Shown here: piece by piece, positions 9,701 through 58,180 of the stretch | Numbering within the stretch: the first letter of the stretch is position 1 | How the letters are laid out: each line of letters starts with the position of its first letter | Assembly (NCBI GenBank): GCA_921293015.1 | Contig: OV121090.1 | Span: 1 to 64,000, forward strand | DNA: 64,000 nucleotides | Direction of reading: 5' to 3' | Origin: Phorcus lineatus | Lineage: Eukaryota > Mollusca > Gastropoda > Trochida > Trochidae | Program-made: the position numbers and the translations under genes | Notes under the pieces: model-generated | The model's database searches: none | The model's input: only the letters and a program-made list of their open reading frames with translations | Told to the model about the DNA's origin: nothing

Positions 9701-9744
9701 GAAAAGATCTTTGAATTAGCAAATGCGTTCACAAACAGGCGTGT

Positions 9745-9747
9745 TAC
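9745..9747 (+). other. Target-site duplication TAC, left side of copy 1
   Basis: The trinucleotide TAC directly precedes the CACTA terminus and recurs directly after the right terminus at 14589-14591. Removing the element and one TAC restores GCGTGTTACTGTGTATAT, which is an ordinary satellite A variant present as an empty site elsewhere in the window (for example near 31.87 and 35.24 kb). A 3-bp duplication is characteristic of EnSpm/CACTA elements. Confidence 0.9.
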
Positions 9748-9771
9748 CACTACAGAAATGACTTGGTTTCC
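9748..9771 (+). repeat. Left terminal inverted repeat of CACTA copy 1
   Basis: 24 bp beginning CACTACAG, the hallmark CACTA terminus. It matches the reverse complement of 14565-14588 except at position 14 (A on the left, T when the right end is read inward). Its last ten bases, CTTGGTTTCC, are also the core of the subterminal repeat, so the TIR merges into the subterminal array. The same TIR starts copies 2 (18135) and 3 (26700). Confidence 0.92.
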
Positions 9772-9841
9772 GGATCACTGAAACCACCATGAAACGACAT
9801 GGAAACCAGTATTTCCACTTGGTATCCAGATAGGTTTCTAT

Positions 9842-10191
9842 AGTTTCATGTTGGTTTCCATGAAAACTGAAACCTACTTTTGCCCCAGACCCGGATTGTA
9901 TCCATCACCGTTCTTTACACACTCCTCCAAGTAGGATCCACTTGGTTTCCGTGATTGAAGTTTCATGTTGGTTTCCATGAAAACTGAAACCTACTTTTGC
10001 CCCAGATCCGGACGGTATCCATCACCGTTCTTTACACACTCCTCCAAGTAGGATCCACTTGGTTTCCGTGATTGAAGTTTCATGTTGGTTTCCATGAAAC
10101 TGAAACCTACTTTTGCCCCAGATCCGGACGGTATCCATCACCGTTCTTTACACACTCCTCCAAGTAGGATCCACTTGGTTTCCATGATTTT
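9842..10191 (+). repeat. Subterminal tandem repeat, 3 x about 117 bp, left arm of copy 1
   Basis: Three units start with AGTTTCATGTTGGTTTCC at 9842, 9959 and 10076. Each contains CTACTTTTGCCCCAGA, a CACCGTTCTTTACACACTCC segment and a closing CCACTTGGTTTCC. Each unit thus carries two TTGGTTTCC cores. Unit 3 lost two A residues after CCATG. Equivalent blocks are at 18229-18578 and 26794-27143. CACTA subterminal repeats typically bind the element's accessory protein; that role is inferred here. Confidence 0.9.
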
Positions 10192-10425
10192 AGTTTACTG
10201 TAGATTTCCACTTGGTTTCCTTGTTTAGTCAGTTTATTGTATGTTTCAACCTGGTTTCCATATTCAGGTTTATTGTAGGTTTCAACTTGGTTTCCGTGTT
10301 TTGTAAGTTTATCGTAGGTTTCAAATTAGTTTCCATAACCTTATATATTATAGGTTTCAACTTGGTTTCCGTGTTTTGTAAGTTTATCGTAGGTTTCAAA
10401 TTAGTTTCTATGTAGTGTTTATTGT
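10186..10425 (+). repeat. Second subterminal array, about 6 units of 36-40 bp, left arm of copy 1
   Basis: Degenerate units of the form AGTTTATTGTAGGTTTCAACTTGGTTTCC (given as its parts AGTTTATYGTAGGTTTCAA and CTTGGTTTCC or ATTAGTTTCC) repeat six or seven times. Two adjacent units are duplicated as a pair, so GTGTTTTGTAAGTTTATCG occurs twice. The apparent repetitive peptides in both strands here (FIVGFNLVS-like and its antisense) are a by-product of this array, not a gene. Equivalent arrays are at 18573-18812 and 27138-27377. Confidence 0.85.
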
Positions 10426-10639
10426 GTGTTACGTAGGTTGTACAATGAACAAACACATTAATTGCCATAAATTATTTATTGCAATAAAGACAAAAAACAT
10501 CCATGGAAAGCTAAATACCTACATGGTAAAATGTAAGTGTGAATTTAAGGTGGTTCACAGTGTATGCCGATCTTTTAAAAAGCATTACTCCTATAAAAAC
10601 ATTTTATAGAAAATATTACCAATCCATTCACTATCAACG

Positions 10640-10645
10640 TTTATT
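10640..10645 (-). promoter_or_regulatory. Possible polyadenylation signal AATAAA for the candidate minus-strand transcript
   Basis: AATAAA on the minus strand lies about 185 bp beyond the TAA of the candidate spliced ORF. A second minus-strand AATAAA is at 10475-10480. The hexamer is common by chance in AT-rich DNA, so it is supportive only if the transcript is real. Confidence 0.2.
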
Positions 10646-10827
10646 CAAACACACAATTTCTAAGAATGAATTCATCTTTAAACGAGTAGTAAGAAAACGT
10701 AAGTTTACAAATTAATCCCTTTTAATTAAATCTCCAATCTTCATTGAAATAATTATTCTATGACAGCTATGAATATAAATTTATGCATATGATTTTTTAG
10801 AAATGCCTTTAGTTATTCATTGCAAAA

Positions 10828-13139
10828 TTAACAATCTACAAAAGTGCAAAATATACACAATTCACCCTGGTCACTTTTCAGATGTTTTGGATTGGTCTTT
10901 ATTCTGAAACAGAAAACAATTGTATAGATATTTAAAATATTCATATGAATACATGAAGATGAGACACTTTCAATCTTCCACGGTTACTTCTTTTCGCAAG
11001 CATACATATCAATTAGGGAGAGTAGTTAACAATCAATCCGTATGCTTACTTAACAATTGAATGTACTTACGGCCTTGCAACCCTCCTTGTTGCTTCAGTG
11101 AACACCTCAGATAAGCAAATTGAATTGAAAATGAAATTGATATATCTCTAATTTTGAATTTCGATAAAAATCAGTAATTTAATTTGATAAAAATGAGGAA
11201 AAAATATTTTACAAAGCCGTCATAAAATCAAAATATGTTGATAACAAAAGAACTTACTGTATGTTTAATTGAATAAACTGTATAAACCACAACAATTATT
11301 TCTCACAGCAGTCTTCAATTGCCCAACTTGCAACCAAGTGCTGGAGTAATATCAGTAAAACTTACAATAGTAACACTGATTGGTAAATAGAGAGCAACTC
11401 ACATTGAATAAGCATTACTGTGAGGCACTGCATGTATCTTGATGGTTCACACTAAAATTAACATCAGCAACATAGTTAATCTTTTAAAAGTTTACATAAG
11501 TCGAGCAGTTTTAAAAACCAATTGTTTCATTTTCATCTAGCAAAATAATATTCTTTTGCATTAGTTATATTTTTAAAAAATATCTCATTTTACAATATTC
11601 TTATAAGTTGAATAAAGAAAAACCATTGAGTTTGTGACTTGCACCTTAAATAGTATCCAAAGAAAAACACAAACATTTAGTTGAAATCGAAAGTTAAGTT
11701 GTTTAGTAACAACTGTTACTGTTCCCATCTTGTTGAAATTCTACTATTACACAGAAAACCTACATACTTTCAATGAAAACAAATAGATATAGTAGAAATT
11801 GACGGAAATATGAAATCCCAAAATAAATTCTTGTTCTAAGTCAAAAGCAATTGATGTTGAGTACTCCCATATCAAAACACATGCAGTTACAGTAGATTAA
11901 ACAAATCAATCAATTTCGACCACCAATTGCCTTGGTTGCATTACCTATTGAATTTTCCAATCTAAACAGTTAAGTAATACACTGGGTGATTATTCAAGAA
12001 TTAGGTCAGCCTGCTGACTGTGATGTTACCTGTTGCATAATCCACTTCCTTTGTCTCAGCTCACGGCTGTCATGGTTCAGTGCACCCTTGTGTAAACAAT
12101 GTCGTATCTTCGGCTGAAAATTGTTAAATAAAGGGAACTAAGTGACTCATCTATATACAGGTCAACATAATACATACAAACCTGATGGCAATGCAAATTT
12201 AACATTCTTATAAACACACCAATCCATAAAGCTTGTCAGTTAAAAACACTCATTTCGACTGAGTGTGAAGCCAACATTTAAGAATGATTTTATTCAGTTC
12301 TCTCACGGGAGTTTAAAAAAACAGTTTATAAGAACAATGTAAGTGAGTTTGATGCAGTTAAGGGGTACTTACTTTGATATCCTTTACTGTAGAGCTGCCT
12401 ATGAACTTATTACTCAGCTCATAGATTATCTACAGTCGTTTATGTTGATGGCGGCCATGTTTGTCCCCTTCATTAGTGACTGACCTGTGTCCGGTAAGGC
12501 CAGGTGTCAAGCAGGAAGTGTTATGCAATCAGCCAGTTCAATTACAGAAGTCTGATCGATTTGAAATTTCATAAGCACATTCATTTTATAACGACTGCCA
12601 AATAAACAAATGGTATACATGCAATATCAGTGTATATTTCTTCGAAATTGAATAACGATTTGTCATACGTCACTCACTTTAATTTGTTTGTATATATTTA
12701 CATATGTGATTGTATTGGAGCGGCCTTAAAATAAGCTCTTTTGAGCTTGTTGGCCAATCCCTTCATGTACTATATCATGAATAAATATGTTTAAAGCAAT
12801 TACAGAGGTTTGTCTAGCCTCTTAAGGAGTGAAGCGTGTTGTAGAGATACGATGAAGGTGATGATTTACTAACAGAAGAGTATTTGAAAGGGTTATGTTT
12901 TTCAGAAAGTAATATAGTATTCCATGAACATCTTTTTAGCTGAAATAAGGAAATGATGTATCAAATACAAGATATTCCTAATTTTATTTTTGTTTCTATT
13001 GAATATTGAATTGTTAGTTTCATTTACTTAATTCTTTAACAAAATTATTTGTTATCTTTAATATTTTATCTGTTTACAAATGAAATACGCATATGTTTGA
13101 AAAAGTTACCTGATGATTCAAAAGAAATAAAGAGGCCAT
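10828..13139 (-). other. Candidate five-exon 93-codon ORF inside CACTA copy 1 (unrecognised)
   Basis: Minus-strand segments join into one open frame: exon 1 13139-13110 (ATG, MASLFLLNHQ, then CAG|GTAACT); exon 2 12429-12373 (after ACTGTAG, starts IIYELSNKF, ends AAA|GTAAGT); exon 3 12113-12030 (after ATTTTCAG, 28 codons, ends CAACAG|GTAACA); exon 4 11105-11071 (after ATCTGAG, VFTEATRRVAR, ends GGCC|GTAAGT); exon 5 10903-10828 (after TTCTGTTTCAG, ends IFCTFVDC then TAA). Introns 1-3 are phase 0; the last is phase 2 and resolves to a proline codon. Exons 3 and 5 have strong borders. The acceptors of exons 2 (poor pyrimidine tract) and 4 (GAG) are weak. I recognise no domain. It could be a captured gene fragment, an element accessory protein, or a chance assembly, since the borders were chosen by eye. 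Confidence 0.3.
12733..12748 (+). other. Perfect 6-bp stem / 4-nt loop hairpin inside CACTA copy 1
   Basis: AAGCTC-TTTT-GAGCTT is a perfect inverted repeat, nested inside an outer GGCC (12722-12725) / GGCC (12752-12755) pair. The geometry equals that of the histone mRNA 3' stem-loop, but stem bases and flanks do not match that consensus and no histone gene is present. Function is unknown; chance is possible. Confidence 0.35.
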
Positions 13140-13718
13140 CAGCTCTGAATCTTGTGATAGAGAATTCGACACAATCCGTGTTTACACTATACAATAAAAT
13201 ATCTATTAGGGAAACTTAAAAGCTATAGCGCATGCCAATAATACCTATCTTTCTATAATATTATCTCTAACGACCAACACTAAGGTAACCTATCAAAGAT
13301 ATTATTCGGCAAATATGTACGCATACAGGTTTCAAAGCCTATTTTATAAGACCGGAAATATTTAATGCAACTGTGCTTAAGAAATCGGTTCATTTTCAGG
13401 GGTGTCGTAAACATATTTCTTCCTTAATTATGAGTTCAAATATTAACGCTAACTCAAAAGCTGCACATGTTACTAATTCAGGCGTTTTCAACAGTCCATA
13501 TCTAATCATTTGTTTGCAAGCTGATCATAGAGATTATATTTCTCTATGCTGAGTAACTGGTGTCACTTACTAAACAAACAACCAAATCTGTTTACAACTT
13601 ATTGACCGATAAAGGGATTTAGCAATAATGGTAACAATCAACATTCAAGACTATTTACCGTGGTGGACAATTGATACTTTTTCACTTCACATTTCTTTCG
13701 TCCATTAATAAATTATAG

Positions 13719-13730
13719 GCTCCGCCCATC
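13719..13730 (-). promoter_or_regulatory. GC-box-like motif with adjacent TATA-like run, minus strand
   Basis: The minus strand reads GATGGGCGGAGCC followed at once by TATAATTTATTAATGG. A GGGCGG box beside a TATA-like run in otherwise AT-rich sequence resembles a small promoter. It lies about 580 bp upstream of the candidate exon 1 ATG and points the same way. This is a weak, motif-level observation. Confidence 0.2.
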
Positions 13731-14129
13731 TCCATCAATATAGCCGATTACTGTTCATGTCAAGAACATTCACTTTAATCCTTTTGTAACTGAATATGAA
13801 ACGTAAATTTCTTATTACGACGATATCATTGATTCATAACACACTAAAGGAAAACATCTATTCTATTCAATTAAACATATCGATAAGATGAGTGTTCTTA
13901 TGTAAACTTTGATGCATTGTTTTTATCTTGCATATCAAATCTTGTCCGTTGATGTTAATAATTTGTTAACGATCTTAAGATGATGGAAAACTATTTTGTT
14001 CCTTAAACAGGATTTGACTCAAAGTTTAAACATTGCCACGATGTAGCCGAAGTATTGCAATTTTCTAGATGTTTTCTAGGGTTAATCTTGAAGCCACACA
14101 GTCAGAGTATAGATACGCGCAACCATCGT

Positions 14130-14564
14130 ATCTTGTTGGTTTCCATTCCGGAAATATATAAAACCTGAATGCCAAATGGATTCAAGTAGGAAACCAAGTT
14201 ACCCAGTTTCAGTGGATGAATACCAAGTGGATGCCATACTAGTCAAACAAAAATGCTTATGATAAAACTAAATAATTTGTCAATCTATTCATTTAGTTCA
14301 AAACAAGATTGGAAACCAACATGAAACTTAACGTTATGGTTTCATGTTAGTTTCCATTCAAAGAAATCATCATTTTCACTTTCCAGAAATGGAAACGACC
14401 ACGATACTTATGACCACAGTTTCATGTTGGTTTCCATATATGGATATATACAAATCAAAGAATCCAAAATGGATTGTAGCTGGAAACCAAGTTACTTAGT
14501 TTCAGTGAATGGATACCAACTGGATACCCTAATTACCCACTTTACTTGTGGTTTCCAGGATTCA
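14130..14564 (+). repeat. Right subterminal repeats of CACTA copy 1
   Basis: About ten scattered motifs in both orientations: GTTGGTTTCCAT at about 14136, GGAAACCAAGTTACCCAG near 14191, GGAAACCAACATGAAAC near 14310, TTTCATGTTAGTTTCC and TTTCATGTTGGTTTCC near 14340 and 14421, and GGAAACCAAGTTACTTAG near 14481, together with diverged GGATACCAACTGGATACC forms. They share the TTGGTTTCC core with the left arm but are not in tandem. The 61-codon ORF crossing this arm and the TIR into the satellite is incidental. Confidence 0.85.
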
Positions 14565-14588
14565 GGAAACCAAGACATTTCTGTAGTG
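14565..14588 (-). repeat. Right terminal inverted repeat of CACTA copy 1
   Basis: Reads inward on the minus strand as CACTACAGAAATG, T, CTTGGTTTCC, matching the left terminus with one mismatch. It is followed by the TAC duplication at 14589-14591. The same right terminus ends copy 2 at 22975 and copy 3 at 31520. Confidence 0.92.
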
Positions 14589-14591
14589 TAC

Positions 14592-17500
14592 TGTGTATAT
14601 CTGAGTTGAATGCATTTTCATTTGTCGACTGTATAACCCTCATTTAGACCCGTTTATAACCTTTGCCCAACTAGATTAGTTACTTATCTTACAGAACATG
14701 CCATATAAACTGTGTTTTTGTCAGAAAAGATCTTTGAATTAGCAAATGCGTTCACAAACAGGCGTAAAACTGTGTATATCTGAGTTGAACGCATTTTCAT
14801 TTTTCGACTGTATAACCCTCATTTAGACCCGTTTATAACCTTTGCCCAACTAGATTAGTCACTTATCTTGCATAACATGCCAAATAAACTGTGTTTTTGT
14901 CAGAAAAGATCTTTGAATTAGCAAATACGTTCACAAACAGGCGTAATACTGTGTATATCTGAGTTGAACGCATTTTCATTTTTCGACTGTATAACCCTCA
15001 TTTAGACCCGTTTATAACCTTTGCCCAACTAGATTAGTCACTTTTCTTGCAGAAAATGCCAAATTAACAGTGTTTTTGTCAGAAAAGATCTTTGAATTAG
15101 CAAATGCGTTCACAAACAGGCGTAGTACTGTGTATATCTGAGTTGAACGCATTTTCATTATTCGACTGTATAACCCTCATTTAGACCCGTTTAAAACCTT
15201 TGCCCAACTAGATTAGTCACTTATCTTGCAGAACATGCCAAATAAACTGTGTTATTGTCACACAAGTTCTTTGAATTAGCAAATGCGTTCTCAAACAGGC
15301 GTAGTACTCGCATTTTTATTTTTCGACGGTATAACCCTCATTTAGACCCGTTTATAACTTCTGCCCAACTAGATTAGTCACTTATCTTGCAGAACATGCC
15401 AAAAAACTTGTGTTTTTGTCAGAAAAGATCTTTGAATTACCAAATGCGTTTACAAACGGGCATATTGCTGTGTATATCTGAGTTGAACGCATTTTTATTT
15501 TCCTAATAAATAACCCTCATTTAGTCCCGTTTATAAACTTTGCCCAACTAGATTTGTCACTTATCTTGCAGAACATGCCAAATAAACTGTGTTTTTGTGA
15601 GAAAAGATCTTTGAATTAGCAAATGAGTTCACAAACAGGCATGGTAATGTGTATATCTGAGTTGAATGCATTTTCGTTTTTCGACTGTATAACCCTCATT
15701 TAGACCTTTTTAAAACCTTTTCCCAACTAGATTCGTCACTTATCTTGCAAAACATGCCAAATAAACTGTGTTTTTGTCAGAAAAGATCTTTGAATTAGCA
15801 AATGCGTTCACAAACAGGCGTGATACTGTGTATATCTGAGTTGAACCCATTTTCATTTTTCGACTGTATAACCCTCAGTTAGACCCGTTTATAACATTTG
15901 CCCAACTAGATTAGTCACTTATCTTGCATAACATGCCAAATAAACTGTGTTTTTGTCAGAAAAGATCTTTGAATTAGCAAATACGTTCACAAACAGGCGT
16001 GATACTGTGTATATCTGAGTTGAACGCATTTTCATTTTTCGACTGTATAACCCTCATTTAGACCCGTTTATAACCTTTGCCCAACTAGATTAGTCACTTA
16101 TCTTGCAGAACATGCCAATTAAACTGTGTTTTTGTCAGAAAAGATCTTTGAATTAGCACATGCGTTCACAAACAGGCGTAGTACTGTGCATATCTGAGTT
16201 GAACGCATTTTCATTATTCGACTGTATAACCCTCATTTAGACCCGTTTATAACCTTTACCCAACTAGATTAGTCACTTATCTTGCAGAACATGCCAATTA
16301 AACTGTGTTTTTGTAAGAAAAGATCTTTGAATTACCAAATGCGTTCACAAACAGGCATAATGCTGTGTATATCTGAGTTGAACGCATTTTCATTTTCCTA
16401 ATAAATAACCCTCATTTAGTCCCGTTTATAACCTTTGCCCAACTAGATCAGTCACTTATCTTGCAGAACATGCCAAATAAACTGTGTTTTTGTCAGAAAA
16501 GATCTTTGAATTAGCAAATGCGTTCACAAACAGGCGTGGTAATGTGTATATCTGAGTTGAACGCATTTTCATTTTTCGACTGTATAACCCTCTTTTAGAC
16601 TTGTTTATAACCTTTGTGCAACTAGATTAGTCACTTATCTTGCATAACATTCTATCAGAAAAGATCTTTGAATTAGCAATTGCGTTCACAAACAGGCCTG
16701 TTACTGTATTTATCTGAGTTGAACAAATTTTCATTTTTCGACTGTATAACCCTCATTTAGACCCGTTTATGACCTTTGCCCAACTAGATTAGTCACTTAT
16801 CTTGCAGAACATGCCAAATAAACTGTGTTTTTGTCAGAAAAGATCTTTGAATTAGCAAATGCGTTCACAAACAGGCGTAGTACCGTGTATATCTGAGTTG
16901 AACACATTTTCATTATTCGACTGTATAACCCTCTTTTAGACTTGTTTATAACCTTTGTGCAACTAGATTAGTCACTTATCTTGCATAACATGCCAAATAA
17001 CCTGTGGTTTTGTGAGAAAAGATCTTTGAATTAGCAAATGCGTTCACAAACAGGAGAAATACTATGTATATCTGAGTTTAACGCATTTTCATTTTTCGAC
17101 TGTATAACCCTCATTTAGACCCGTTTATAACATTTGCCCAACTAGATTAGTCACTTATCTTGCAGAACATGCCACATAAACTGTGTTTTTGTAAGAAAAG
17201 ATCTTTGAATTAGCAAATGCGTTCACAAACAGGCGTAATACTGTGTATATCTGAGTTGAACACATTTTCATTTTTCGACTGTATAACCCTTATTTAGACC
17301 CGTTTATAACCTTTGCCCAACTAGATTCGTCACTTATCTTGCAGAACATGCAAAATAAACTGTTTTTGTCAGAAAAGATATTTGATTTAGCAAATGCGTT
17401 CACAAACAGGCGTAGTACTGTGTATCTCTGAGTTTAAAGCTTTTTTATTATTCGACTGTATAACCCTCATTTAGACCCGTTTTTAACCTTTGCACAAATA

Positions 17501-18131
17501 GATTCGTCACTTATCTTGCAGAACATTCCACATAAACTGTGTTTTTGTCAGAAAAGATCTTTGAATTAGCAAATGCGTTCACAAACAGGCATAAAATTGT
17601 ATATATCTGAGTTGAACGCATTTTTATTTTTTGACTGTATAACCCTCATCTAGACCCGTTTATAACTTTTGCCCAACTAGATTAGTCACTTATTTTGCAG
17701 AACATGCCAAATAAACTGTGTTATTGTCACACAAGTTCTTTGAATTAGCAAATGCGTTCTCAAACAGGCGTAGCACTCTGTTAATCTGAGTTGAACGCAT
17801 TTTCATTTTCCTAATAAATAACCTTTATTTAGTCCCGTTTATAACCTTTGCCCAACTAGATTAGTCACTTATCTTGCAGAACATGCCAAATAAACTGTGT
17901 TTTTGTCAGAAAAGATCTTTGAATTAGCAAATGCGTTCACAAACAGGCGTAGAACTGTGTATATCTGAGTTGAACGCATTTTCATTTTCCTAATAAATAA
18001 ACCTCATTTAGTCCCGTTTATAACCTTTGCCCAACTAGATTAGTCACTTATCTTGCAGAACATGCCACATAAACTGTGTTTTTGTAAGAAAAGATCTTTG
18101 AATTAGCAAATGCGTTCACAAACAGGCGTGT
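14592..18131 (+). repeat. Satellite A array, segment 2 (about 20 monomers)
   Basis: Same orientation and 179-bp monomer as segment 1. It begins part way through the monomer that the transposon interrupts. Its 3' part (from about 16.03 kb) copies the 7.46-9.74 kb region; its 5' part (to about 16.07 kb) matches the start of segment 3. It contains one 161-bp short monomer near 15.31 kb and one missing monomer relative to the other transposon-bearing units. No gene is seen. Confidence 0.96.
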
Positions 18132-18134
18132 TAC

Positions 18135-21100
18135 CACTACAGAAATGACTTGGTTTCCGGATCACTGAAACCACCATGAAACGACATGGAAACCAGTATT
18201 TCCACTTGGTATCCAGATAGGTTTCTATAGTTTCATGTTGGTTTCCATGAAAACTGAAACCTACTTTTGCCCCAGACCCGGATTGTATCCATCACCGTTC
18301 TTTACACACTCCTCCAAGTAGGATCCACTTGGTTTCCGTGATTGAAGTTTCATGTTGGTTTCCATGAAAACTGAAACCTACTTTTGCCCCAGATCCGGAC
18401 GGTATCCATCACCGTTCTTTACACACTCCTCCAAGTAGGATCCACTTGGTTTCCGTGATTGAAGTTTCATGTTGGTTTCCATGAAACTGAAACCTACTTT
18501 TGCCCCAGATCCGGACGGTATCCATCACCGTTCTTTACACACTCCTCCAAGTAGGATCCACTTGGTTTCCATGATTTTAGTTTACTGTAGATTTCCACTT
18601 GGTTTCCTTGTTTAGTCAGTTTATTGTATGTTTCAACCTGGTTTCCATATTCAGGTTTATTGTAGGTTTCAACTTGGTTTCCGTGTTTTGTAAGTTTATC
18701 GTAGGTTTCAAATTAGTTTCCATAACCTTATATATTATAGGTTTCAACTTGGTTTCCGTGTTTTGTAAGTTTATCGTAGGTTTCAAATTAGTTTCTATGT
18801 AGTGTTTATTGTGTGTTACGTAGGTTGTACAATGAACAAACACATTAATTGCCATAAATTATTTATTGCAATAAAGACAAAAAACATCCATGGAAAGCTA
18901 AATACCTACATGGTAAAATGTAAGTGTGAATTTAAGGTGGTTCACAGTGTATGCCGATCTTTTAAAAAGCATTACTCCTATAAAAACATTTTATAGAAAA
19001 TATTACCAATCCATTCACTATCAACGTTTATTCAAACACACAATTTCTAAGAATGAATTCATCTTTAAACGAGTAGTAAGAAAACGTAAGTTTACAAATT
19101 AATCCCTTTTAATTAAATCTCCAATCTTCATTGAAATAATTATTCTATGACAGCTATGAATATAAATTTATGCATATGATTTTTTAGAAATGCCTTTAGT
19201 TATTCATTGCAAAATTAACAATCTACAAAAGTGCAAAATATACACAATTCACCCTGGTCACTTTTCAGATGTTTTGGATTGGTCTTTATTCTGAAACAGA
19301 AAACAATTGTATAGATATTTAAAATATTCATATGAATACATGAAGATGAGACACTTTCAATCTTCCACGGTTACTTCTTTTCGCAAGCATACATATCAAT
19401 TAGGGAGAGTAGTTAACAATCAATCCGTATGCTTACTTAACAATTGAATGTACTTACGGCCTTGCAACCCTCCTTGTTGCTTCAGTGAACACCTCAGATA
19501 AGCAAATTGAATTGAAAATGAAATTGATATATCTCTAATTTTGAATTTCGATAAAAATCAGTAATTTAATTTGATAAAAATGAGGAAAAAATATTTTACA
19601 AAGCCGTCATAAAATCAAAATATGTTGATAACAAAAGAACTTACTGTATGTTTAATTGAATAAACTGTATAAACCACAACAATTATTTCTCACAGCAGTC
19701 TTCAATTGCCCAACTTGCAACCAAGTGCTGGAGTAATATCAGTAAAACTTACAATAGTAACACTGATTGGTAAATAGAGAGCAACTCACATTGAATAAGC
19801 ATTACTGTGAGGCACTGCATGTATCTTGATGGTTCACACTAAAATTAACATCAGCAACATAGTTAATCTTTTAAAAGTTTACATAAGTCGAGCAGTTTTA
19901 AAAACCAATTGTTTCATTTTCATCTAGCAAAATAATATTCTTTTGCATTAGTTATATTTTTAAAAAATATCTCATTTTACAATATTCTTATAAGTTGAAT
20001 AAAGAAAAACCATTGAGTTTGTGACTTGCACCTTAAATAGTATCCAAAGAAAAACACAAACATTTAGTTGAAATCGAAAGTTAAGTTGTTTAGTAACAAC
20101 TGTTACTGTTCCCATCTTGTTGAAATTCTACTATTACACAGAAAACCTACATACTTTCAATGAAAACAAATAGATATAGTAGAAATTGACGGAAATATGA
20201 AATCCCAAAATAAATTCTTGTTCTAAGTCAAAAGCAATTGATGTTGAGTACTCCCATATCAAAACACATGCAGTTACAGTAGATTAAACAAATCAATCAA
20301 TTTCGACCACCAATTGCCTTGGTTGCATTACCTATTGAATTTTCCAATCTAAACAGTTAAGTAATACACTGGGTGATTATTCAAGAATTAGGTCAGCCTG
20401 CTGACTGTGATGTTACCTGTTGCATAATCCACTTCCTTTGTCTCAGCTCACGGCTGTCATGGTTCAGTGCACCCTTGTGTAAACAATGTCGTATCTTCGG
20501 CTGAAAATTGTTAAATAAAGGGAACTAAGTGACTCATCTATATACAGGTCAACATAATACATACAAACCTGATGGCAATGCAAATTTAACATTCTTATAA
20601 ACACACCAATCCATAAAGCTTGTCAGTTAAAAACACTCATTTCGACTGAGTGTGAAGCCAACATTTAAGAATGATTTTATTCAGTTCTCTCACGGGAGTT
20701 TAAAAAAACAGTTTATAAGAACAATGTAAGTGAGTTTGATGCAGTTAAGGGGTACTTACTTTGATATCCTTTACTGTAGAGCTGCCTATGAACTTATTAC
20801 TCAGCTCATAGATTATCTACAGTCGTTTATGTTGATGGCGGCCATGTTTGTCCCCTTCATTAGTGACTGACCTGTGTCCGGTAAGGCCAGGTGTCAAGCA
20901 GGAAGTGTTATGCAATCAGCCAGTTCAATTACAGAAGTCTGATCGATTTGAAATTTCATAAGCACATTCATTTTATAACGACTGCCAAATAAACAAATGG
21001 TATACATGCAATATCAGTGTATATTTCTTCGAAATTGAATAACGATTTGTCATACGTCACTCACTTTAATTTGTTTGTATATATTTACATATGTGATTGT

Positions 21101-22975
21101 ATTGGAGCGGCCTTAAAATAAGCTCTTTTGAGCTTGTTGGCCAATCCCTTCATGTACTATATCATGAATAAATATGTTTAAAGCAATTACAGAGGTTTGT
21201 CTAGCCTCTTAAGGAGTGAAGCGTGTTGTAGAGATACGATGAAGGTGATGATTTACTAACAGAAGAGTATTTGAAAGGGTTATGTTTTTCAGAAAGTAAT
21301 ATAGTATTCCATGAACATCTTTTTAGCTGAAATAAGGAAATGATGTATCAAATACAAGATATTCCTAATTTTATTTTTGTTTCTATTGAATATTGAATTG
21401 TTAGTTTCATTTACTTAATTCTTTAACAAAATTATTTGTTATCTTTAATATTTTATCTGTTTACAAATGAAATACGCATATGTTTGAAAAAGTTACCTGA
21501 TGATTCAAAAGAAATAAAGAGGCCATCAGCTCTGAATCTTGTGATAGAGAATTCGACACAATCCGTGTTTACACTATACAATAAAATATCTATTAGGGAA
21601 ACTTAAAAGCTATAGCGCATGCCAATAATACCTATCTTTCTATAATATTATCTCTAACGACCAACACTAAGGTAACCTATCAAAGATATTATTCGGCAAA
21701 TATGTACGCATACAGGTTTCAAAGCCTATTTTATAAGACCGGAAATATTTAATGCAACTGTGCTTAAGAAATCGGTTCATTTTCAGGGGTGTCGTAAACA
21801 TATTTCTTCCTTAATTATGAGTTCAAATATTAACGCTAACTCAAAAGCTGCACATGTTACTAATTCAGGCGTTTTCAACAGTCCATATCTAATCATTTGT
21901 TTGCAAGCTGATCATAGAGATTATATTTCTCTATGCTGAGTAACTGGTGTCACTTACTAAACAAACAACCAAATCTGTTTACAACTTATTGACCGATAAA
22001 GGGATTTAGCAATAATGGTAACAATCAACATTCAAGACTATTTACCGTGGTGGACAATTGATACTTTTTCACTTCACATTTCTTTCGTCCATTAATAAAT
22101 TATAGGCTCCGCCCATCTCCATCAATATAGCCGATTACTGTTCATGTCAAGAACATTCACTTTAATCCTTTTGTAACTGAATATGAAACGTAAATTTCTT
22201 ATTACGACGATATCATTGATTCATAACACACTAAAGGAAAACATCTATTCTATTCAATTAAACATATCGATAAGATGAGTGTTCTTATGTAAACTTTGAT
22301 GCATTGTTTTTATCTTGCATATCAAATCTTGTCCGTTGATGTTAATAATTTGTTAACGATCTTAAGATGATGGAAAACTATTTTGTTCCTTAAACAGGAT
22401 TTGACTCAAAGTTTAAACATTGCCACGATGTAGCCGAAGTATTGCAATTTTCTAGATGTTTTCTAGGGTTAATCTTGAAGCCACACAGTCAGAGTATAGA
22501 TACGCGCAACCATCGTATCTTGTTGGTTTCCATTCCGGAAATATATAAAACCTGAATGCCAAATGGATTCAAGTAGGAAACCAAGTTACCCAGTTTCAGT
22601 GGATGAATACCAAGTGGATGCCATACTAGTCAAACAAAAATGCTTATGATAAAACTAAATAATTTGTCAATCTATTCATTTAGTTCAAAACAAGATTGGA
22701 AACCAACATGAAACTTAACGTTATGGTTTCATGTTAGTTTCCATTCAAAGAAATCATCATTTTCACTTTCCAGAAATGGAAACGACCACGATACTTATGA
22801 CCACAGTTTCATGTTGGTTTCCATATATGGATATATACAAATCAAAGAATCCAAAATGGATTGTAGCTGGAAACCAAGTTACTTAGTTTCAGTGAATGGA
22901 TACCAACTGGATACCCTAATTACCCACTTTACTTGTGGTTTCCAGGATTCAGGAAACCAAGACATTTCTGTAGTG
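18135..22975. mobile_element. Non-autonomous CACTA transposon, copy 2, 4841 bp
   Basis: Same length, termini, TAC duplications (18132-18134 and 22976-22978) and internal arrays as copy 1. No differences were noticed in the stretches compared, which implies a very recent duplication. It sits at the identical monomer position as copy 1, so it arose by duplication of the host array, not by a new insertion. The candidate minus-strand exons map to 21526-21497, 20816-20760, 20500-20417, 19492-19458 and 19290-19215, all with the same borders. Confidence 0.9.
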
Positions 22976-22978
22976 TAC

Positions 22979-25900
22979 TGTGTATATCTGAGTTGAATGC
23001 ATTTTCATTTGTCGACTGTATAACCCTCATTTAGACCCGTTTATAACCTTTGCCCAACTAGATTAGTTACTTATCTTACAGAACATGCCATATAAACTGT
23101 GTTTTTGTCAGAAAAGATCTTTGAATTAGCAAATGCGTTCACAAACAGGCGTAAAACTGTGTATATCTGAGTTGAACGCATTTTCATTTTTCGACTGTAT
23201 AACCCTCATTTAGACCCGTTTATAACCTTTGCCCAACTAGATTAGTCACTTATCTTGCATAACATGCCAAATAAACTGTGTTTTTGTCAGAAAAGATCTT
23301 TGAATTAGCAAATACGTTCACAAACAGGCGTAATACTGTGTATATCTGAGTTGAACGCATTTTCATTTTTCGACTGTATAACCCTCATTTAGACCCGTTT
23401 ATAATCTTTGCCCAACTAGATTAGTCACTTTTCTTGCAGAAAATGCCAAATGAACAGTGTTTTTGTCAGAAAAGATCTTTGAATTAGCAAATGCGTTCAC
23501 AAACAGGCGTAATACTGTGTATATCTGAGTTGAACGCATTTTCATTATTCGACTGTATAACCCTCATTTAGACCCGTTTAAAACCTTTGCCCAACTAGAT
23601 TAGTCACTTATCTTGCAGAACATGCCAAATAAACTGTGTTATTGTCACACAAGTTCTTTGAATTAGCAAATGCGTTCTCAAACAGGCGTAGTACTCGCAT
23701 TTTTATTTTTCGACGGTATAACCCTCATTTAGACCCGTTTATAACTTCTGCCCAACTAGATTAGTCACTTATCTTGCAGAACATGCCAAAAAACTTGTGT
23801 TTTTGTCAGAAAAGATCTTTGAATTACCAAATGCGTTTACAAACGGGCATATTGCTGTGTATATCTGAGTTGAACGCATTTTTATTTTCCTAATAAATAA
23901 CCCTCATTTAGTCCCGTTTATAAACTTTGCCCAACTAGATTTGTCACTTATCTTGCAGAACATGCCAAATAAACTGTGTTTTTGTGAGAAAAGATCTTTG
24001 AATTAGCAAATGAGTTCACAAACAGGCATGGTAATGTGTATATCTGAGTTGAATGCATTTTCGTTTTTCGACTGTATAACCCTCATTTAGACCTTTTTAA
24101 AACCTTTTCCCAACTAGATTCGTCACTTATCTTGCAAAACATGCCAAATAAACTGTGTTTTTGTCAGAAAAGATCTTTGAATTAGCAAATGCGTTCACAA
24201 ACAGGCGTGATACTGTGTATATCTGAGTTGAACCCATTTTCATTTTTCGACTGTATAACCCTCAGTTAGACCCGTTTATAACATTTGCCCAACTAGATTA
24301 GTCACTTATCTTGCATAACATGCCAAATAAACTGTGTTTTTGTCAGAAAAGATCTTTGAATTAGCAAATACGTTCACAAACAGGCGTGATACTGTGTATA
24401 TCTGAGTTGAACGCATTTTCATTTTTCGACTGTATAACCCTCATTTAGACCCGTTTATAACCTTTGCCAAACTAGATTAGTCACTTATCTTGCAGAACAT
24501 GCCAAATAAACTGTGTTATTGTCACACAAGTTCTTTGAATTAGCAAATGCGTTCTCAAACAGGCGTAGTACTCGCATTTTTATTTTTCGACGGTATAACC
24601 CTCATTTAGACCCGTTTATAACTTTTGCCCAACTAGATTAGTCACTTATCTTGAAGAACATGCCAAAAAACTTGTGTTTTTGTCAGAACAGATCTTTGAA
24701 TTACCAAATGCGTTTACAAACGGGCATATTGCTGTGTATATCTGAGTTGAACGCATTTTTATTTTCCTAATAAATAACCCTCATTTAGTCCCGTTTATAA
24801 ACTTTGCCCAACTAGATTTGTCACTTATCTTGCAGAACATGCCAAATAAACTGTGTTTTTGTGAGAAAAGATCTTTGAATTAGCAAATGAGTTCACAAAC
24901 AGGCGTGGTAATAAGTATATCTGAGTTGAATGCATTTTCATTTTTCGACTGTATAACCCTCATTTAGACCTTTTTAAAACCTTTGCCCAACTAGATTCGT
25001 CACTTATCTTGCAAAACATGCCAAATAAACTGTGTTTTTGTCAGAAAAGATCTTTGAATTAGCAAATGCGTTCACAAACAGGCGTGATACTGTGTATATC
25101 TGAGTTGAACCCATTTTCATTTTTCGACTGTATAACCCTCAGTTAAACCCGTTTATAACATTTGCCCAACTAGATTAGTCACTTATCTTGCAGAACATGC
25201 CAAATAAACTGTGTTTTTGTCAGAAAAGATCTTTGAATTTGCAATTGCGTTCACAAACAGGCCTGTTACTGTATATATCTGAGTTGAACACATTTTCATT
25301 TTTCGACTGTATAACCCTCATTTAGACCCGTTTATGACCTTTGGCCAACTAGATTAGTCACTTATCTTGCATAACATGCCAAATAAACTGTGTTTTTGTC
25401 AGAAAAGATCTTTGAATTAGCAAATGCGTTCACAAACAGGCGTAGTACCGTGTATATCTGAGTTGAACACATTTTCATTATTCGACTGTATAACCCTCTT
25501 TTAGACTTGTTTATAACCTTTGTGCAACTAGATTAGTCACTTATCTTGCATAACATGCCAAATAACCTGTGGTTTTGTGAGAAAAGATCTTTGAATTAGC
25601 AAATGCGTTCACAAACAGGAGAAATACTATGTATATCTGAGTTTAACGCATTTTCATTTTTCGACTGTATAACCCTCATTTAGACCCGTTTATAACCTTT
25701 GCCCAACTAGATTAGTCACTTATCTTGCAGAACATGCCACATAAACTGTGTTTTTGTAAGAAAAGATCTTTGAATTAGCAAATGCGTTCACAAACAGGCG
25801 TAATACTGTGTATATCTGAGTTGAACACATTTTCATTTTTCGACTGTATAACCCTTATTTAGACCCGTTTATAACCTTTGCCCAACTAGATTCGTCACTT

Positions 25901-26696
25901 ATCTTGCAGAACATGCAAAATAAACTGTTTTTGTCAGAAAAGATATTTGATTTAGCAAATGCGTTCACAAACAGGCGTAGTACTGTGTATCTCTGAGTTT
26001 AAAGCTTTTTCATTATTCGACTGTATAACCCTCATTTAGACCCGTTTATAACCTTTGCACAAATAGATTCGTCACTTATCTTGCAGAACATTCCACATAA
26101 ACTGTGTTTTTGTCAGAAAAGATCTTTGAATTAGCAAATGCGTTCACAAACAGGCATAAAATTGTATATATCTGAGTTGAACGCATTTTTATTTTTTGAC
26201 TGTATAACCCTCATTTAGACCCGTTTATAACTTTTGCCCAACTAGATTAGTCACTTATTTTGCAGAACATGCCAAATAAACTGTGTTATTGTCACACAAG
26301 TTCTTTGAATTAGCAAATGCGTTCTCAAACAGGCGTAGCACTCTGTTAATCTGAGTTGAACGCTTTTTCATTTTCCTAATAAATAACCTTCATTTAGTCC
26401 CGTTTATAACCTTTGCCCAACTAGATTAGTCACTTATCTTGCAGAACATGCCAAATAAACTGTGTTTTTGTCAGAAAAGATTTTTGAATTAGCAAATGCG
26501 TTCACAAACAGGCGTAGTACTCTGTATATCTGAGTTGAACGCATTTTCATTTTCCTAATAAATAAACCTCATTTAGTCCCGTTTATAACCTTTGCCCAAC
26601 TAGATTAGTCACTTATCTTGCAGAACATGCCACATAAACTGTGTTTTTGTAAGAAAAGATCTTTGAATTAGCAAATGCGTTCACAAACAGGCGTGT
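22979..26696 (+). repeat. Satellite A array, segment 3 (about 21 monomers)
   Basis: 179-bp monomers in the same orientation as before, bounded by copies 2 and 3 of the transposon. It carries 161-bp short monomers near 23.69 and 24.57 kb. The block around 23.58-24.2 kb is repeated near 24.47-25.1 kb, again a local multimer duplication. Its right part (25.4-26.69 kb) matches the flank left of copies 1 and 2. No gene is seen. Confidence 0.96.
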
Positions 26697-26699
26697 TAC

Positions 26700-29600
26700 C
26701 ACTACAGAAATGACTTGGTTTCCGGATCACTGAAACCACCATGAAACGACATGGAAACCAGTATTTCCACTTGGTATCCAGATAGGTTTCTATAGTTTCA
26801 TGTTGGTTTCCATGAAAACTGAAACCTACTTTTGCCCCAGACCCGGATTGTATCCATCACCGTTCTTTACACACTCCTCCAAGTAGGATCCACTTGGTTT
26901 CCGTGATTGAAGTTTCATGTTGGTTTCCATGAAAACTGAAACCTACTTTTGCCCCAGATCCGGACGGTATCCATCACCGTTCTTTACACACTCCTCCAAG
27001 TAGGATCCACTTGGTTTCCGTGATTGAAGTTTCATGTTGGTTTCCATGAAACTGAAACCTACTTTTGCCCCAGATCCGGACGGTATCCATCACCGTTCTT
27101 TACACACTCCTCCAAGTAGGATCCACTTGGTTTCCATGATTTTAGTTTACTGTAGATTTCCACTTGGTTTCCTTGTTTAGTCAGTTTATTGTATGTTTCA
27201 ACCTGGTTTCCATATTCAGGTTTATTGTAGGTTTCAACTTGGTTTCCGTGTTTTGTAAGTTTATCGTAGGTTTCAAATTAGTTTCCATAACCTTATATAT
27301 TATAGGTTTCAACTTGGTTTCCGTGTTTTGTAAGTTTATCGTAGGTTTCAAATTAGTTTCTATGTAGTGTTTATTGTGTGTTACGTAGGTTGTACAATGA
27401 ACAAACACATTAATTGCCATAAATTATTTATTGCAATAAAGACAAAAAACATCCATGGAAAGCTAAATACCTACATGGTAAAATGTAAGTGTGAATTTAA
27501 GGTGGTTCACAGTGTATGCCGATCTTTTAAAAAGCATTACTCCTATAAAAACATTTTATAGAAAATATTACCAATCCATTCACTATCAACGTTTATTCAA
27601 ACACACAATTTCTAAGAATGAATTCATCTTTAAACGAGTAGTAAGAAAACGTAAGTTTACAAATTAATCCCTTTTAATTAAATCTCCAATCTTCATTGAA
27701 ATAATTATTCTATGACAGCTATGAATATAAATTTATGCATATGATGGTTTAGAAATGCCTTTAGTTATTCATTGCAAAATTAACAATCTACAAAAGTGCA
27801 AAATATACACAATTCACCCTGGTCACTTTTCAGATGTTTTGGATTGGTCTTTATTCTGAAACAGAAAACAATTGTATAGATATTTAAAATATTCATATGA
27901 ATACATGAAGATGAGACACTTTCAATCTTCCACGGTTACTTCTTTTCGCAAGCATACATATCAATTAGGGAGAGTAGTTAACAATCAATCCGTATGCTTA
28001 CTTAACAATTGAATGTACTTACGGCCTTGCAACCCTCCTTGTTGCTTCAGTGAACACCTCAGATAAGCAAATTGAATTGAAAATGAAATTGATATATCTC
28101 TAATTTTGAATTTCGATAAAAATCAGTAATTTAATTTGATAAAAATGAGGAAAAAATATTTTACAAAGCCGTCATAAAATCAAAATATGTTGATAACAAA
28201 AGAACTTACTGTATGTTTAATTGAATAAACTGTATAAACCACAACAATTATTTCTCACAGCAGTCTTCAATTGCCCAACTTGCAACCAAGTGCTGGAGTA
28301 ATATCAGTAAAACTTACAATAGTAACACTGATTGGTAAATAGAGAGCAACTCACATTGAATAAGCATTACTGTGAGGCACTGCATGTATCTTGATGGTTC
28401 ACACTAAAATTAACATCAGCAACATAGTTAATCTTTTAAAAGTTTACATAAGTCGAGCAGTTTTAAAAACCAATTGTTTCGTTTTCATCTAGCAAAATAA
28501 TATTCTTTTGCATTAGTTATATTTTTAAAAAATATCTCATTTTACAATATTCTTATAAGTTGAATAAAGAAAAACCATTGAGTTTGTGACTTGCACCTTA
28601 AATAGTATCCAAAGAAAAACACAAACATTTAGTTGAAATCGAAAGTTAAGTTGTTTAGTAACAACTGTTACTGTTCCCATCTTGTTGAAATTCTACTATT
28701 ACACAGAAAACCTACATACTTTCAATGAAAACAAATAGATATAGTAGAAATTGACGGAAATATGAAATCCCAAAATAAATTCTTGTTCTAAGTCAAAAGC
28801 AATTGATGTTGAGTACTCCCATATCAAAACACATGCAGTTACAGTAGATTAAACAAATCAATCAATTTCGACCACCAATTGCCTTGGTTGCATTACCTAT
28901 TGAATTTTCCAATCTAAACAGTTAAGTAATACACTGGGTGATTATTCAAGAATTAGGTCAGCCTGCTGACTGTGATGTTACCTGTTGCATAATCCACTTC
29001 CTTTGTCTCAGCTCACGGCTGTCATGGTTCAGTGCACCCTTGTGTAAACAATGTCGTATCTTCGGCTGAAAATTGTTAAATAAAGGGAACTAAGTGACTC
29101 ATCTATATACAGGTCAACATAATACATACAAACCTGATGGCAATGCAAATTTAACATTCTTATAAACACACCAATCCATAAAGCTTGTCAGTTAAAAACA
29201 CTCATTTCGACTGAGTGTGAAGCCAACATTTAAGAATGATTTTATTCAGTTCTCTCACGGGAGTTTAAAAAAACAGTTTATAAGAACAATGTAAGTGAGT
29301 TTGATGCAGTTAAGGGGTACTTACTTTGATATCCTTTACTGTAGAGCTGCCTATGAACTTATTACTCAGCTCATAGATTATCTACAGTCGTTTATGTTGA
29401 TGGCGGCCATGTTTGTCCCCTTCATTAGTGACTGACCTGTGTCCGGTAAGGCCAGGTGTCAAGCAGGAAGTGTTATGCAATCAGCCAGTTCAATTACAGA
29501 AGTCTGATCGATTTGAAATTTCATAAGCACATTCATTTTATAACGACTGCCAAATAAACAAATGGTATACATGCAATATCAGTGTATATTTCTTCGAAAT

Positions 29601-31520
29601 TGAATAACGATTTGTCATACGTCACTCACTTTAATTTGTTTGTATATATTTACATATGTGATTGTATTGGAGCGGCCTTAAAATAAGCTCTTTTGAGCTT
29701 GTTGGCCAATCCCTTCATGTACTATATCATGAATAAATATGTTTAAAGCAATTACAGAGGTTTGTCTAGCCTCTTAAGGAGTGAAGCGTGTTGTAGAGAT
29801 ACGATGAAGGTGATGATTTACTAACAGAAGAGTATTTGAAAGGGTTATGTTTTTCAGAAAGTAATATAGTATTCCATGAACATCTTTTTAGCTGAAATAA
29901 GGAAATGATGTATCAAATACAAGATATTCCTAATTTTATTTTTGTTTCTATTGAATATTGAATTGTTAGTTTCATTTACTTAATTCTTTAACAAAATTAT
30001 TTGTTATCTTTAATATTTTATCTGTTTACAAATGAAATACGCATATGTTTGAAAAAGTTACCTGATGATTCAAAAGAAATAAAGAGGCCATCAGCTCTGA
30101 ATCTTGTGATAGAGAATTCGACACAACAAAATATCTATTAGGGAAACTTAAAAGCTATAGCGCATGCCAATAATACCTATCTTTCTATAATATTATCTCT
30201 AACGACCAACACTAAGGTAACCTATCAAAGATATTATTCGGCAAATATGTACGCATACAGGTTTCAAAGCCTATTTTATAAGACCGGAAATATTTAATGC
30301 AACTGTGCTTAAGAAATCGGTTCATTTTCAGGGGTGTCGTAAACATATTTCTTCCTTAATTATGAGTTCAAATATTAACGCTAACTCAAAAGCTGCACAT
30401 GTTACTAATTCAGGCGTTTTCAACAGTCCATATCTAATCATTTGTTTGCAAGCTGATCATAGAGATTATATTTCTCTATGCTGAGTAACTGGTGTCACTT
30501 ACTAAACAAACAACCAAATCTGTTTACAACTTATTGACCGATAAAGGGATTTAGCAATAATGGTAACAATCAACATTCAAGACTATTTACCGTGGTGGAC
30601 AATTGATACTTTTTCACTTCACATTTCTTTCGTCCATTAATAAATTATAGGCTCCGCCCATCTCCATCAATATAGCCGATTACTGTTCATGTCAAGAACA
30701 TTCACTTTAATCCTTTTGTAACTGAATATGAAACGTAAATTTCTTATTACGACGATATCATTGATTCATAACACACTAAAGGAAAACATCTATTCTATTC
30801 AATTAAACATATCGATAAGATGAGTGTTCTTATGTAAACTTTGATGCATTGTTTTTATCTTGCATATCAAATCTTGTCCGTTGATGTTAATAATTTGTTA
30901 ACGATCTTAAGATGATGGAAAACTATTTTGTTCCTTAAACAGGATTTGACTGAAAGTTTAAACATTGCCACGATGTAGCCGAAGTATTGCAATTTTCTAG
31001 ATGTTTTCTAGGGTTAATCTTGAAGCCACACAGTCAGAGTATAGATACGCGCAACCATCGTATCTTGTTGGTTTCCATTCCGGAAATATATAAAACCTGA
31101 ATGCCAAATGGATTCAAGTAGGAAACCAAGTTACCCAGTTTCAGTGGATGAATACCAAGTGGATGCCATACTAGTCAAACAAAAATGCTTATGATAAAAC
31201 TAAATAATTTGTCAATCTATTCATTTAGTTCAAAACAAGATTGGAAACCAACATGAAACTTAACGTTATGGTTTCATGTTAGTTTCCATTCAAAGAAATC
31301 ATCATTTTCACTTTCCAGAAATGGAAACGACCACGATACTTATGACCACAGTTTCATGTTGGTTTCCATATATGGATATATACAAATCAAAGAATCCAAA
31401 ATGGATTGTAGCTGGAAACCAAGTTACTTAGTTTCAGTAAATGGATACCAACTGGATACCCTAATTACCCACTTTACTTGTGGTTTCCAGGATTCAGGAA
31501 ACCAAGACATTTCTGTAGTG
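26700..31520. mobile_element. Non-autonomous CACTA transposon, copy 3, 4821 bp
   Basis: Same termini and TAC duplications (26697-26699 and 31521-31523) as copies 1 and 2, but 20 bp shorter. The deletion follows GACACAA at about 30127, removing the sequence between GACACAA and AAAATATC. Other private differences include GATGGTTTAG for GATTTTTTAG near 27743, TTTCGTTTTC near 28480, GACTGAAAG near 30950 and TTTCAGTAAATGG near 31436. It is therefore the most diverged of the three. The candidate minus-strand exons remain intact at 30091-30062, 29381-29325, 29065-28982, 28057-28023 and 27855-27780. Confidence 0.9.
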
Positions 31521-33889
31521 TACTGTGTATATCTGAGTTGAATGCATTTTCATTTGTCGACTGTATAACCCTCATTTAGACCCGTTTATAACCTTTGCCC
31601 AACTAGATTAGTTACTTATCTTACAGAACATGCCATATAAACTGTGTTTTTGTCAGAAAAGATCTTTGAATTAGCAAATGCGTTCACAAACAGGAGTAAA
31701 ACTGTGTATATCTGAGTTGAACGCATTTTCATTTTTCGACTGTATAACCCTCATTTAGACCCGTTTATAACCTTTGCCCAACTAGATTAGTCACTTATCT
31801 TACAGAACATGCCAATTAAACTGTGTTTTTGTCAGAAAAGATCTTTGAATTTGCAATTGCGTTCACAAACAGGCGTGTTACTGTGTATATCTGAGTTGAA
31901 CGCATTTTCATTTTTCGACTGTTTAACCCTCATTTAGACCCGTTTATAACCTTTGCCCAACTAGATTAGTCACTTATCTTGCAGAACATGCCAAATAAAC
32001 TGTGTTTTTGTCAGAAAAGATCTCTGAATTAGCAAATGCGTTCACAAACAGGCGTAGTACTGTGTATATCTGAGTTGAACGCATTTTCATTATTCGACTG
32101 TATAACCCTCATTTAGACCCGTTTAAAACCTTTGCCCAACTAGATTAGTCACTTATCTTGCAGAACATGCCAAATAAACTGTGTTATTGTCACACAAGTT
32201 CTTTGAATTAGCAGATGCGTTCTCAAACAGGCGTAGTACTCGCATTTTTATTTTTCGACGGTATAACCCTCATTTAGACCCGTTTATAACTTCTGCCCAA
32301 CTAGATTAGTCACTTATCTTGCAGAACATGCCAAAAAACTTGTGTTTTTGTCAGAAAAGATCTTTGAATTACCAAATGCGTTTACAAACGGGCATATTGC
32401 TGTGTATATCTGAGTTGAACGCATTTTTATTTTCCTAATAAATAACCCTCATTTAGTCCCGTTTATAACCTTTGCCCAACTAGATTTGTCACTTATCTTG
32501 CAGAACATGCCAAATAAACTGTGTTTTTGTGAGAAAAGATCTTTAAATTAGCAAATGAGTTCACAAACAGGCGTGGTAATGTGTATATCTGAGTTGAATG
32601 CATTTTCATTTTTCGACTGTATAAACCTCATTTAGACCTTTTTAAAACCTTTTCCCAACTAGATTCGTCACTTATCTTGCAAAACATGCCAAATAAACTG
32701 TGTTTTTGTCAGAAAAGATCTTTGAATTAGCAAATGCGTTCACAAACAGGCGTGATACTGTGTATATCTGAGTTGAACGCATTTTCATTTTTCGACTGTA
32801 TAACCCTCAGTTAGACCCGTTTATAACATTTGCCCAACTAGATTAGTCACTTATCTTGCATAACATGCCAAATAAACTGTGTTTTTGTCAGAAAAGATCT
32901 TTGAATTAGCAAATACGTTCACAAACAGGCGTAATACTGTGTATATCTGAGTTGAACGCATTTTCATTTTTCGACTGTATAACCCTCATTTAGACCCGTT
33001 TATAACCTTTGCCAAACTAGATTAGTCACTTTTCTTGCAGAAAATGCCAAATAAACTGTGTTTTTGTCAGAAAAGATCTTTGAATTAGCAAATGCGTTCA
33101 CAAACAGGCGTAGTACTGTGTATATCTGAGTTGAACGCATTTTCATTATTCGACTGTATAACCCTCATTTAGACCCGTTTAAAACCTTTGCCCAACTAGA
33201 TTAGTCACTTATCTTGCAGAACATGCCAAATAAACTGTGTTATTGTCACACAAGTTCTTTGAATTAGCAAATGCGTTCTCAAACAGGCGTAGTACTCGCA
33301 TTTTTATTTTTCGACGATATAACCCTCATTTAGACCCGTTTATAACTTTTGCCCAACTAGATTAGTCACTTATCTTGCAGAACATGCCAAAAAACTTGTG
33401 TTTTTGTCAGAAAAGATCTTTGAATTACCAAATGCGTTTACAAACGGGCATATTGCTGTGTATATCTGAGTTGAACGCATTTTTATTTTCCTAATAAATA
33501 ACCCTCATTTAGTCCCGTTTATAAACTTTGCCCAACTAGATTTGTCACTTATCTTGCAGAACATGCCAAATAAACTGTGTTTTTGTCAGAAAAGATCTTT
33601 GAATTAGCAAATACGTTCACAAACAGGCGTAATACTGTGTATATCTGAGTTGAACGCATTTTCATTTTTCGACTGTATAACCCTCATTTAGACCCGTTTA
33701 TAACCTTTGCCCAACTAGATTAGTCACTTTTCTTGCAGAAAATGCCAAATTAACAGTGTTTTTGTCAGAAAAGATCTTTGAATTAGCAAATGCGTTCACA
33801 AACAGGTGTGGTACTCTGTATATCTGAGTTGAATGCATTTTCATTTGTTGACTGCATAACCCTCATTTAGACCCATTTATATAGCCTTT

Positions 33890-58169: not shown

Positions 58170-58180
58170 CTTTGTTGACC
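58170..58180. other. Abrupt junction between satellite A and satellite B
   Basis: Satellite A ends inside a monomer at AGATCTTTG and satellite B starts at TTGACCGAC (58175). Normal satellite B reads TCTTTGTGGGTTGACC; the junction reads TCTTTGTTGACC. The hexamer TCTTTG is thus shared by both satellites at the breakpoint, with four bases missing, which suggests a microhomology-mediated or illegitimate join. No transposon or unique spacer intervenes. Confidence 0.9.

Follow-up and report, generated by a model that had tools for sequence, protein, structure and literature searches.

A CACTA transposon apparently inserted once and multiplied with its satellite flanks by block duplication in Phorcus lineatus

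The window analysed here is the opening 64-kb stretch of the 49.55-Mb contig C16 in the 957.8-Mb, 74-contig assembly of the gastropod Phorcus lineatus. It begins at its first base with an array of a 179-bp satellite (positions 1-58173, forward strand), and this array is interrupted by three copies of a CACTA transposon. The array consists of 247 monomers and part-monomers with a mean pairwise identity of 0.88. According to our analysis, the three transposon copies would derive from one insertion into a single monomer, which was multiplied together with its flanks by two in-register block duplications, while the surrounding satellite kept changing, probably through gene conversion. We give this account as a whole a probability of about 0.9. 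The sequence was compared with the entire assembly; genome-wide repeat counts are lower bounds, as the best candidates were scored and very common words were skipped.

All three copies lie on the forward strand: E1 (4841 bp, 9748-14588), with its TAC duplication at 9745-9747 and 14589-14591, E2 (4841 bp, 18135-22975) and E3 (4821 bp, 26700-31520). E1 and E2 show 0 differences over 4841 bp and their run of exact identity reaches beyond the element (9567-15017), while E3 departs from them by six substitutions and one 20-bp deletion. The start-to-start distances of 8387 and 8565 bp reproduce those of a preliminary description of this DNA, which had seen three CACTA copies with the same termini, TAC duplication and monomer position. 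Coordinates, junctions and host monomers bear this out. Each element was inserted after the same base of the 179-bp monomer and is flanked by TAC at either end; all three have the left junction (caggcgtgttac joined to CACTACAG) and the right junction (CTGTAGTG joined to tactgtgtatat) in common. The left 17-base junction was found three times in the window when up to two mismatches were allowed (0.02 expected from shuffles), and an exact search of the complete assembly also gave three matches. For the right 30-base junction, with up to three mismatches allowed, the assembly again yielded three. All of these matches lie in the window, so that a count across the rest of the genome adds none, and the controls (reversed patterns for the left junction) gave 0. 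Different monomer contexts, which the preliminary description had named as a point that would speak against it, are excluded, since removing the element and one TAC in silico leaves the same sequence in all three host monomers (m54, m74 and m95). The claim that rare satellite variants of the flank were copied too also stands: a 36-base variant stretch of monomer m55 (14677-14712, forward strand) was found in the assembly solely beside E1, E2 and E3 (up to one mismatch), with no empty counterpart that carries it.

Dispersed relatives of the element allow this reading to be weighed from a second side. The alignment set comprised ten dispersed copies for which both halves were available, other family members being left out, and relationships were read from pairwise identities and private changes. 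Identity is 99.88-100% among E1-3, and the nearest of the ten dispersed copies reaches 98.05%. Thirty-six substitutions are common to E1-3 and occur in 0 of the 10 dispersed copies (35 of them where the ten are unanimous). A 258-bp segment of E1 (12539-12796, forward strand), also contained in E2 and E3, is missing in 10 of 10 dispersed copies; because it is bounded by a 10-bp direct repeat (CAATTACAGA), it may have been lost in the dispersed copies rather than gained in E1-3. The target-site duplication (TSD), both junctions, the flank variant and the private changes of the element are thus all common to the three copies, which is the pattern of tandem duplication after integration. A single insertion with two later block duplications in register thus has good support, and so does the earlier proposal of a single insertion multiplied with its satellite flanks and without new transposition. 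Three independent insertions into the same favoured monomer site are, in our view, barely credible. Target preference is generally known to occur in transposons and the host sequence is present in many repeats, but independent arrivals are contradicted by the 36 private substitutions and the 258-bp segment, by a flank match that extends far past the site and includes a variant found nowhere else, and by the dispersed copies with examined surroundings, which lie outside the satellite and have other TSDs. Only a conversion that copied flanks and element together could mimic the pattern, and this would be our own account reworded.

The single insertion appears to have been multiplied as part of three composite units, all on the forward strand. 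U1 (7459-16024) comprises 21 recognisable monomers, m42-m62, with E1 in m54; U2 (16025-24411) comprises 20, m63-m82, with E2 in m74 and no equivalent of m45; and U3 (25289-32956) comprises 16, m88-m103, with E3 in m95. U2 and U3 are separated by a linker (m83-m87, 24412-25288, forward strand), whose monomers m83-m86 are 98-99% like m78-m81 and which looks like a local five-monomer duplication. The U1/U2 junction at 16024/16025 is in register, and the unit junctions in general keep the monomer register. Between m46-m62 and m66-m82, all 17 monomer pairs have an identity of at least 0.983. Between m67-m82 and m88-m103, 14 of 16 pairs reach at least 0.97; the other two, m76/m97 and m77/m98, are at 0.955, and m97-m98 of U3 (31722-32079) are nearer to other array monomers than to their counterparts. 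The preliminary description had spoken of an 8.4-8.6-kb composite repeat and of a higher-order repeat of the satellite. The latter we do not uphold: the assembly yielded no more than three composite units, their monomer numbers are unequal (21, 20 and 16), and the rest of the array contains scattered block duplications of varied size with no single regular period.

Blocks without an element were duplicated as well, over 16 or more monomers, namely m153-168 with m185-200 (mean identity 0.995) and m108-123 with m133-148 (mean identity 0.9745), and such element-free duplications occur at lags of 32, 25 and 50 monomers. Because U2 matches U1 to the left and to the right of the element (m42-62) and does not match U3 on the left, the last exchange point is placed in the satellite near m62/m63. 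Since element-free blocks were duplicated too and the latest breakpoint lies in the satellite, the element looks like a passenger of array duplication. Long identical blocks are generally good substrates for homologous exchange, and 4.8 kb of identity could accordingly have anchored unequal exchange, the element driving its own amplification. We consider this very improbable. For the last step it is rejected, as U2 copies U1 on both element sides with the exchange point in the satellite; at the first step there would, on our account, have been a single element only; and the duplicated blocks without any element speak against it as well.

The order of the two duplications can be read from the elements, with the dispersed copies as outgroup and polarity judged by eye. 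E1/E2 carry two adjacent derived bases, and E3 carries four derived substitutions together with the 20-bp deletion, also derived; one of these four substitutions adjoins the deletion and may belong to it. Because the derived changes separate E1/E2 from E3 against the outgroup, U3 is read as having split first, with U1/U2 as the newest step. The common stem of E1-3 carries 35 private changes in 4417 ungapped columns, which agrees with the 38 and 49 of the two nearest dispersed copies; the range over the ten is 8 to 66. If the stem changes arose mostly after insertion, we infer that no second copy existed for roughly nine tenths of the period that the element has spent at this site.

The satellite has changed faster than the element it surrounds. 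With indels left out on both sides, U2 and U3 differ at 37 of 2843 satellite positions and at 6 of 4821 element positions (odds ratio 10.6, Fisher p 4e-11), and U1 and U2 differ at 8 of 3542 and 0 of 4841, respectively (p 0.001). For 24 of the 37 satellite differences between U2 and U3, both alleles are present in at least 2 of 180 outside monomers, where 26% would be expected for random changes (p 1e-6), and the differences cluster in few monomers (p 1e-4). The excess of shared variants, the clustering and the likeness of m97/m98 to other monomers form together the pattern that gene conversion would leave. We lean slightly towards seeing the embedded transposon as a clean clock, in which the satellite would have been altered by exchange among monomers at about ten times the rate at which mutation altered the insert, the insert being shielded from conversion as it has no homologue in the array. 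The ratio is of the same order as that reviewed for Arabidopsis centromeres and, if this is true, the same order holds in another genome.

From these observations we posit the following history. A non-autonomous CACTA element entered one 179-bp monomer once, making the TAC duplication, and probably had no second copy there during most of the time since. A misaligned exchange that kept the monomer register, either unequal sister exchange or break-induced replication, would then have duplicated the block with the element and given rise to U3 and the ancestor of U1/U2, and a second, very recent event of the same kind would have produced U2 from U1. In the intervals, the satellite would have been altered further by short-tract gene conversion and by small gains and losses of monomers in register, while the element would have changed by mutation only, because it has no similar neighbour in the array except its own copies. 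The data establish the single origin, the sequence of the two steps, the register of the junctions and the surplus of change in the satellite; the mechanism of duplication, conversion as the source of that surplus and the long single-copy period are our inferences.

Several points weigh against this history or parts of it. Part of the 35 stem changes may predate the insertion. Thirteen of the 37 differences between U2 and U3 are not known variants and still occur at 3.7 times the element rate (p 0.007), so that conversion may not be the whole cause, or its donors may lie outside the assembled array; only 3 of the 8 differences between U1 and U2 are shared variants. Sixteen of the 37 fall in m97 and m98, which are perhaps not true counterparts, and the excess without them is 6.8-fold (p 4e-6). 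Finally, the contig opens within the array and has the three elements close to its start, a place prone to assembly errors, and E1 equals E2 over 4841 bp and throughout the exact run described above. One or two real units might thus have been placed end to end by the assembler, through expansion or the stacking of alleles. We regard this as unlikely, though less so than the other alternatives: a whole monomer and eight flank substitutions separate U1 from U2, and U3 is distinct in both element and flanks. At least two units must be real, unless haplotypes were stacked.

The element itself has CACTA termini, with CACTACAGAAATG... at both ends and an inverted repeat of about 24 bp, the right terminal repeat carrying the same single changed base (one mismatch) in E1, E2 and E3. 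The preliminary description had proposed that each composite unit carries a ready set of CACTA ends; any such set would include this changed base. When one mismatch is allowed, the 24-bp terminus has 264 forward and 276 reverse matches in the genome, compared with 0 for the reversed control. CACTA elements make a 3-bp TSD, which is TAC in all three window copies; the dispersed copies with both ends read have their own perfect 3-bp duplication in 9 of 9 cases, with 8 different sequences (the tenth copy, without its first 13 bases, was left out of this scoring). The subterminal region of E1 (9842-10408, forward strand) contains 117-bp and 39/75-bp repeat arrays with a GGTTTCC/GGAAACC motif, and the same arrays are found in E2 and E3. 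In E1, TGGTTTCC/GGAAACCA occurs 12 times in the first 800 bp, 7 times in the last 800 bp and 0 times between 800 and 4200. A scan of E1, to which E2 is identical, gave no open reading frame longer than 79 aa, and the window copies are, to judge from their sequence, non-autonomous members of the CACTA group. At least 102 stretches, spread over 14 contigs, match the whole element, as judged from the 32 candidates scored out of 2459 at first look. The 27 loci around dispersed copies (L007-L033) showed no measurable 14-mers of the 179-bp satellite, except for a share of 0.001 in one. At C5:62218456-62218543, a right and a left terminus of the family stand 40 bp apart, as if two members lay side by side.

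Transposase_21 (PF02992, the tnp2-type CACTA transposase) has 10 matches in the genome. One of them, at C2:20.66 Mb, lies inside a relative of the element that retains one intact 24-bp terminal inverted repeat (TIR) and, at 90% and 76%, the two subterminal regions, the other terminus being short by about 20 bp; the frame of this transposase fragment scores 41.2 bits, with a Pfam cut-off of 28.6. Four further PF02992 loci were inspected and had no family terminus within 1.5 kb, and no complete autonomous copy was found among the five of ten loci inspected. A generic CACTA terminus search was uninformative (12 matches versus 6.2 expected). Because the ends match and one relative contains a Transposase_21 fragment, the family is assigned, on these sequence features, to CACTA by its ends and, in one case, tentatively by its transposase.

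Other loci with long TIR pairs were considered as transposase sources and rejected. L041, a 9.9-kb TIR pair at C1:42.2 Mb, has a 148-aa frame with a weak Mutator match only (Pfam E 0.0061, 16 bits, below the cut-off of 26.5). Four loci elsewhere match this frame at 97-98%; three of them, compared at the DNA level, match L041 only from base 4943 to about 6815 (the end of the compared locus), which falls in the part of L041 that is absent from E1. This part, a roughly 5-kb segment of L041 (about 2955-8015), has TTAA on both sides and similar inverted ends (read by eye), and because of these borders and ends it is taken as a separate nested element and not as a CACTA transposase. L042 and L047 have only their end regions in common with E1; the longest stop-to-stop frame of L042 measures 133 aa, and in L047 no frame reaches 90 aa.

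Three more contigs start with the 179-bp satellite: C15, C17, where its form is divergent, and C33, which is 44 kb long. Within the array of the window, a truncated 96-bp monomer with the same number of bases deleted occurs four times (37420-37515, 44323-44418, 46210-46305 and 49888-49983) and is perhaps a marker of common block ancestry. Over monomer positions 14-37, m53 and m54 differ from the majority alike at 14, 16, 18, 20, 21 and 37; each of these changes occurs in 30-51 of the 247 monomers, and they may reflect two monomer classes. After the array, a 157-bp satellite takes over and reaches to about C16:70,593, with 99% matches at 58174-64000, in L034 (1-6593) and in L040. Five 2-kb samples from C16:84,001-502,000 had no measurable 14-mer share with either satellite, and the last 2 kb of C16 are again 157-bp satellite. 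This satellite opens 6 of 16 other chromosome-scale contigs checked at their start (C2, C5, C11, C25, C29 and C37). It is always on the + strand, including at both ends of C16, and a mirror-image subtelomeric repeat would differ in this respect.

Exchange rates in satellite arrays are hard to measure because any monomer could have exchanged with many others. If a unique insert is copied with its flanks, it dates each duplication independently of the satellite. In the present array, the same DNA is subject to in-register duplication of blocks of 20-21 monomers and, it seems, to conversion over short tracts. The transposon gains copies by riding in the array, and where transposons lie in satellites, their copy counts and ages may reflect something other than transposition.

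That transposons in satellites can be duplicated after their integration is already known. The centromeric retrotransposon ATHILA of Arabidopsis reportedly underwent it. In satellite higher-order repeats, such as those of alpha satellite, a multi-monomer block is repeated in tandem; our units resemble these in being multi-monomer blocks in tandem, but differ in that the assembly holds three unequal units and no homogenised array. In the literature, covered mostly at the level of titles and abstracts and thus without proof of absence, we recognised no CACTA element in a higher-order or composite satellite repeat. The excerpts of the published account of Brachypodium describe centromeric CRM retrotransposons that were duplicated after integration (PMC10910784) and, as in our case, an element in a satellite array was multiplied by array recombination and not by transposition. 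Unlike CRM and ATHILA, the element described here is a non-autonomous CACTA DNA transposon in a 179-bp array at a contig start, and the order of the steps can be read from the common TSD, flanks and private changes.

For Arabidopsis centromeres, the relevant section of a review describes in-frame indels that span 1-31 monomers, and a 9-fold excess of point changes over the arms, mostly from non-allelic conversion tracts shorter than a monomer (Dong et al., 2025, via PMC12321929). The 20-21-monomer in-register units and the 10.6-fold excess in our array resemble these findings. As far as that section goes, the Arabidopsis data come from mutation-accumulation lines, whereas ours come from one assembly in which the embedded transposon acts as an internal control. 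In maize centromeres, gene conversion was traced by CRM2 insertion markers (Shi et al., as summarized in part in PMC2834710). Both that study and ours use transposon insertions as unique markers of exchange in satellite DNA; by this summary, the maize work relied on presence and absence across inbred lines, whereas here the divergence of the insert is compared with that of its flanks.

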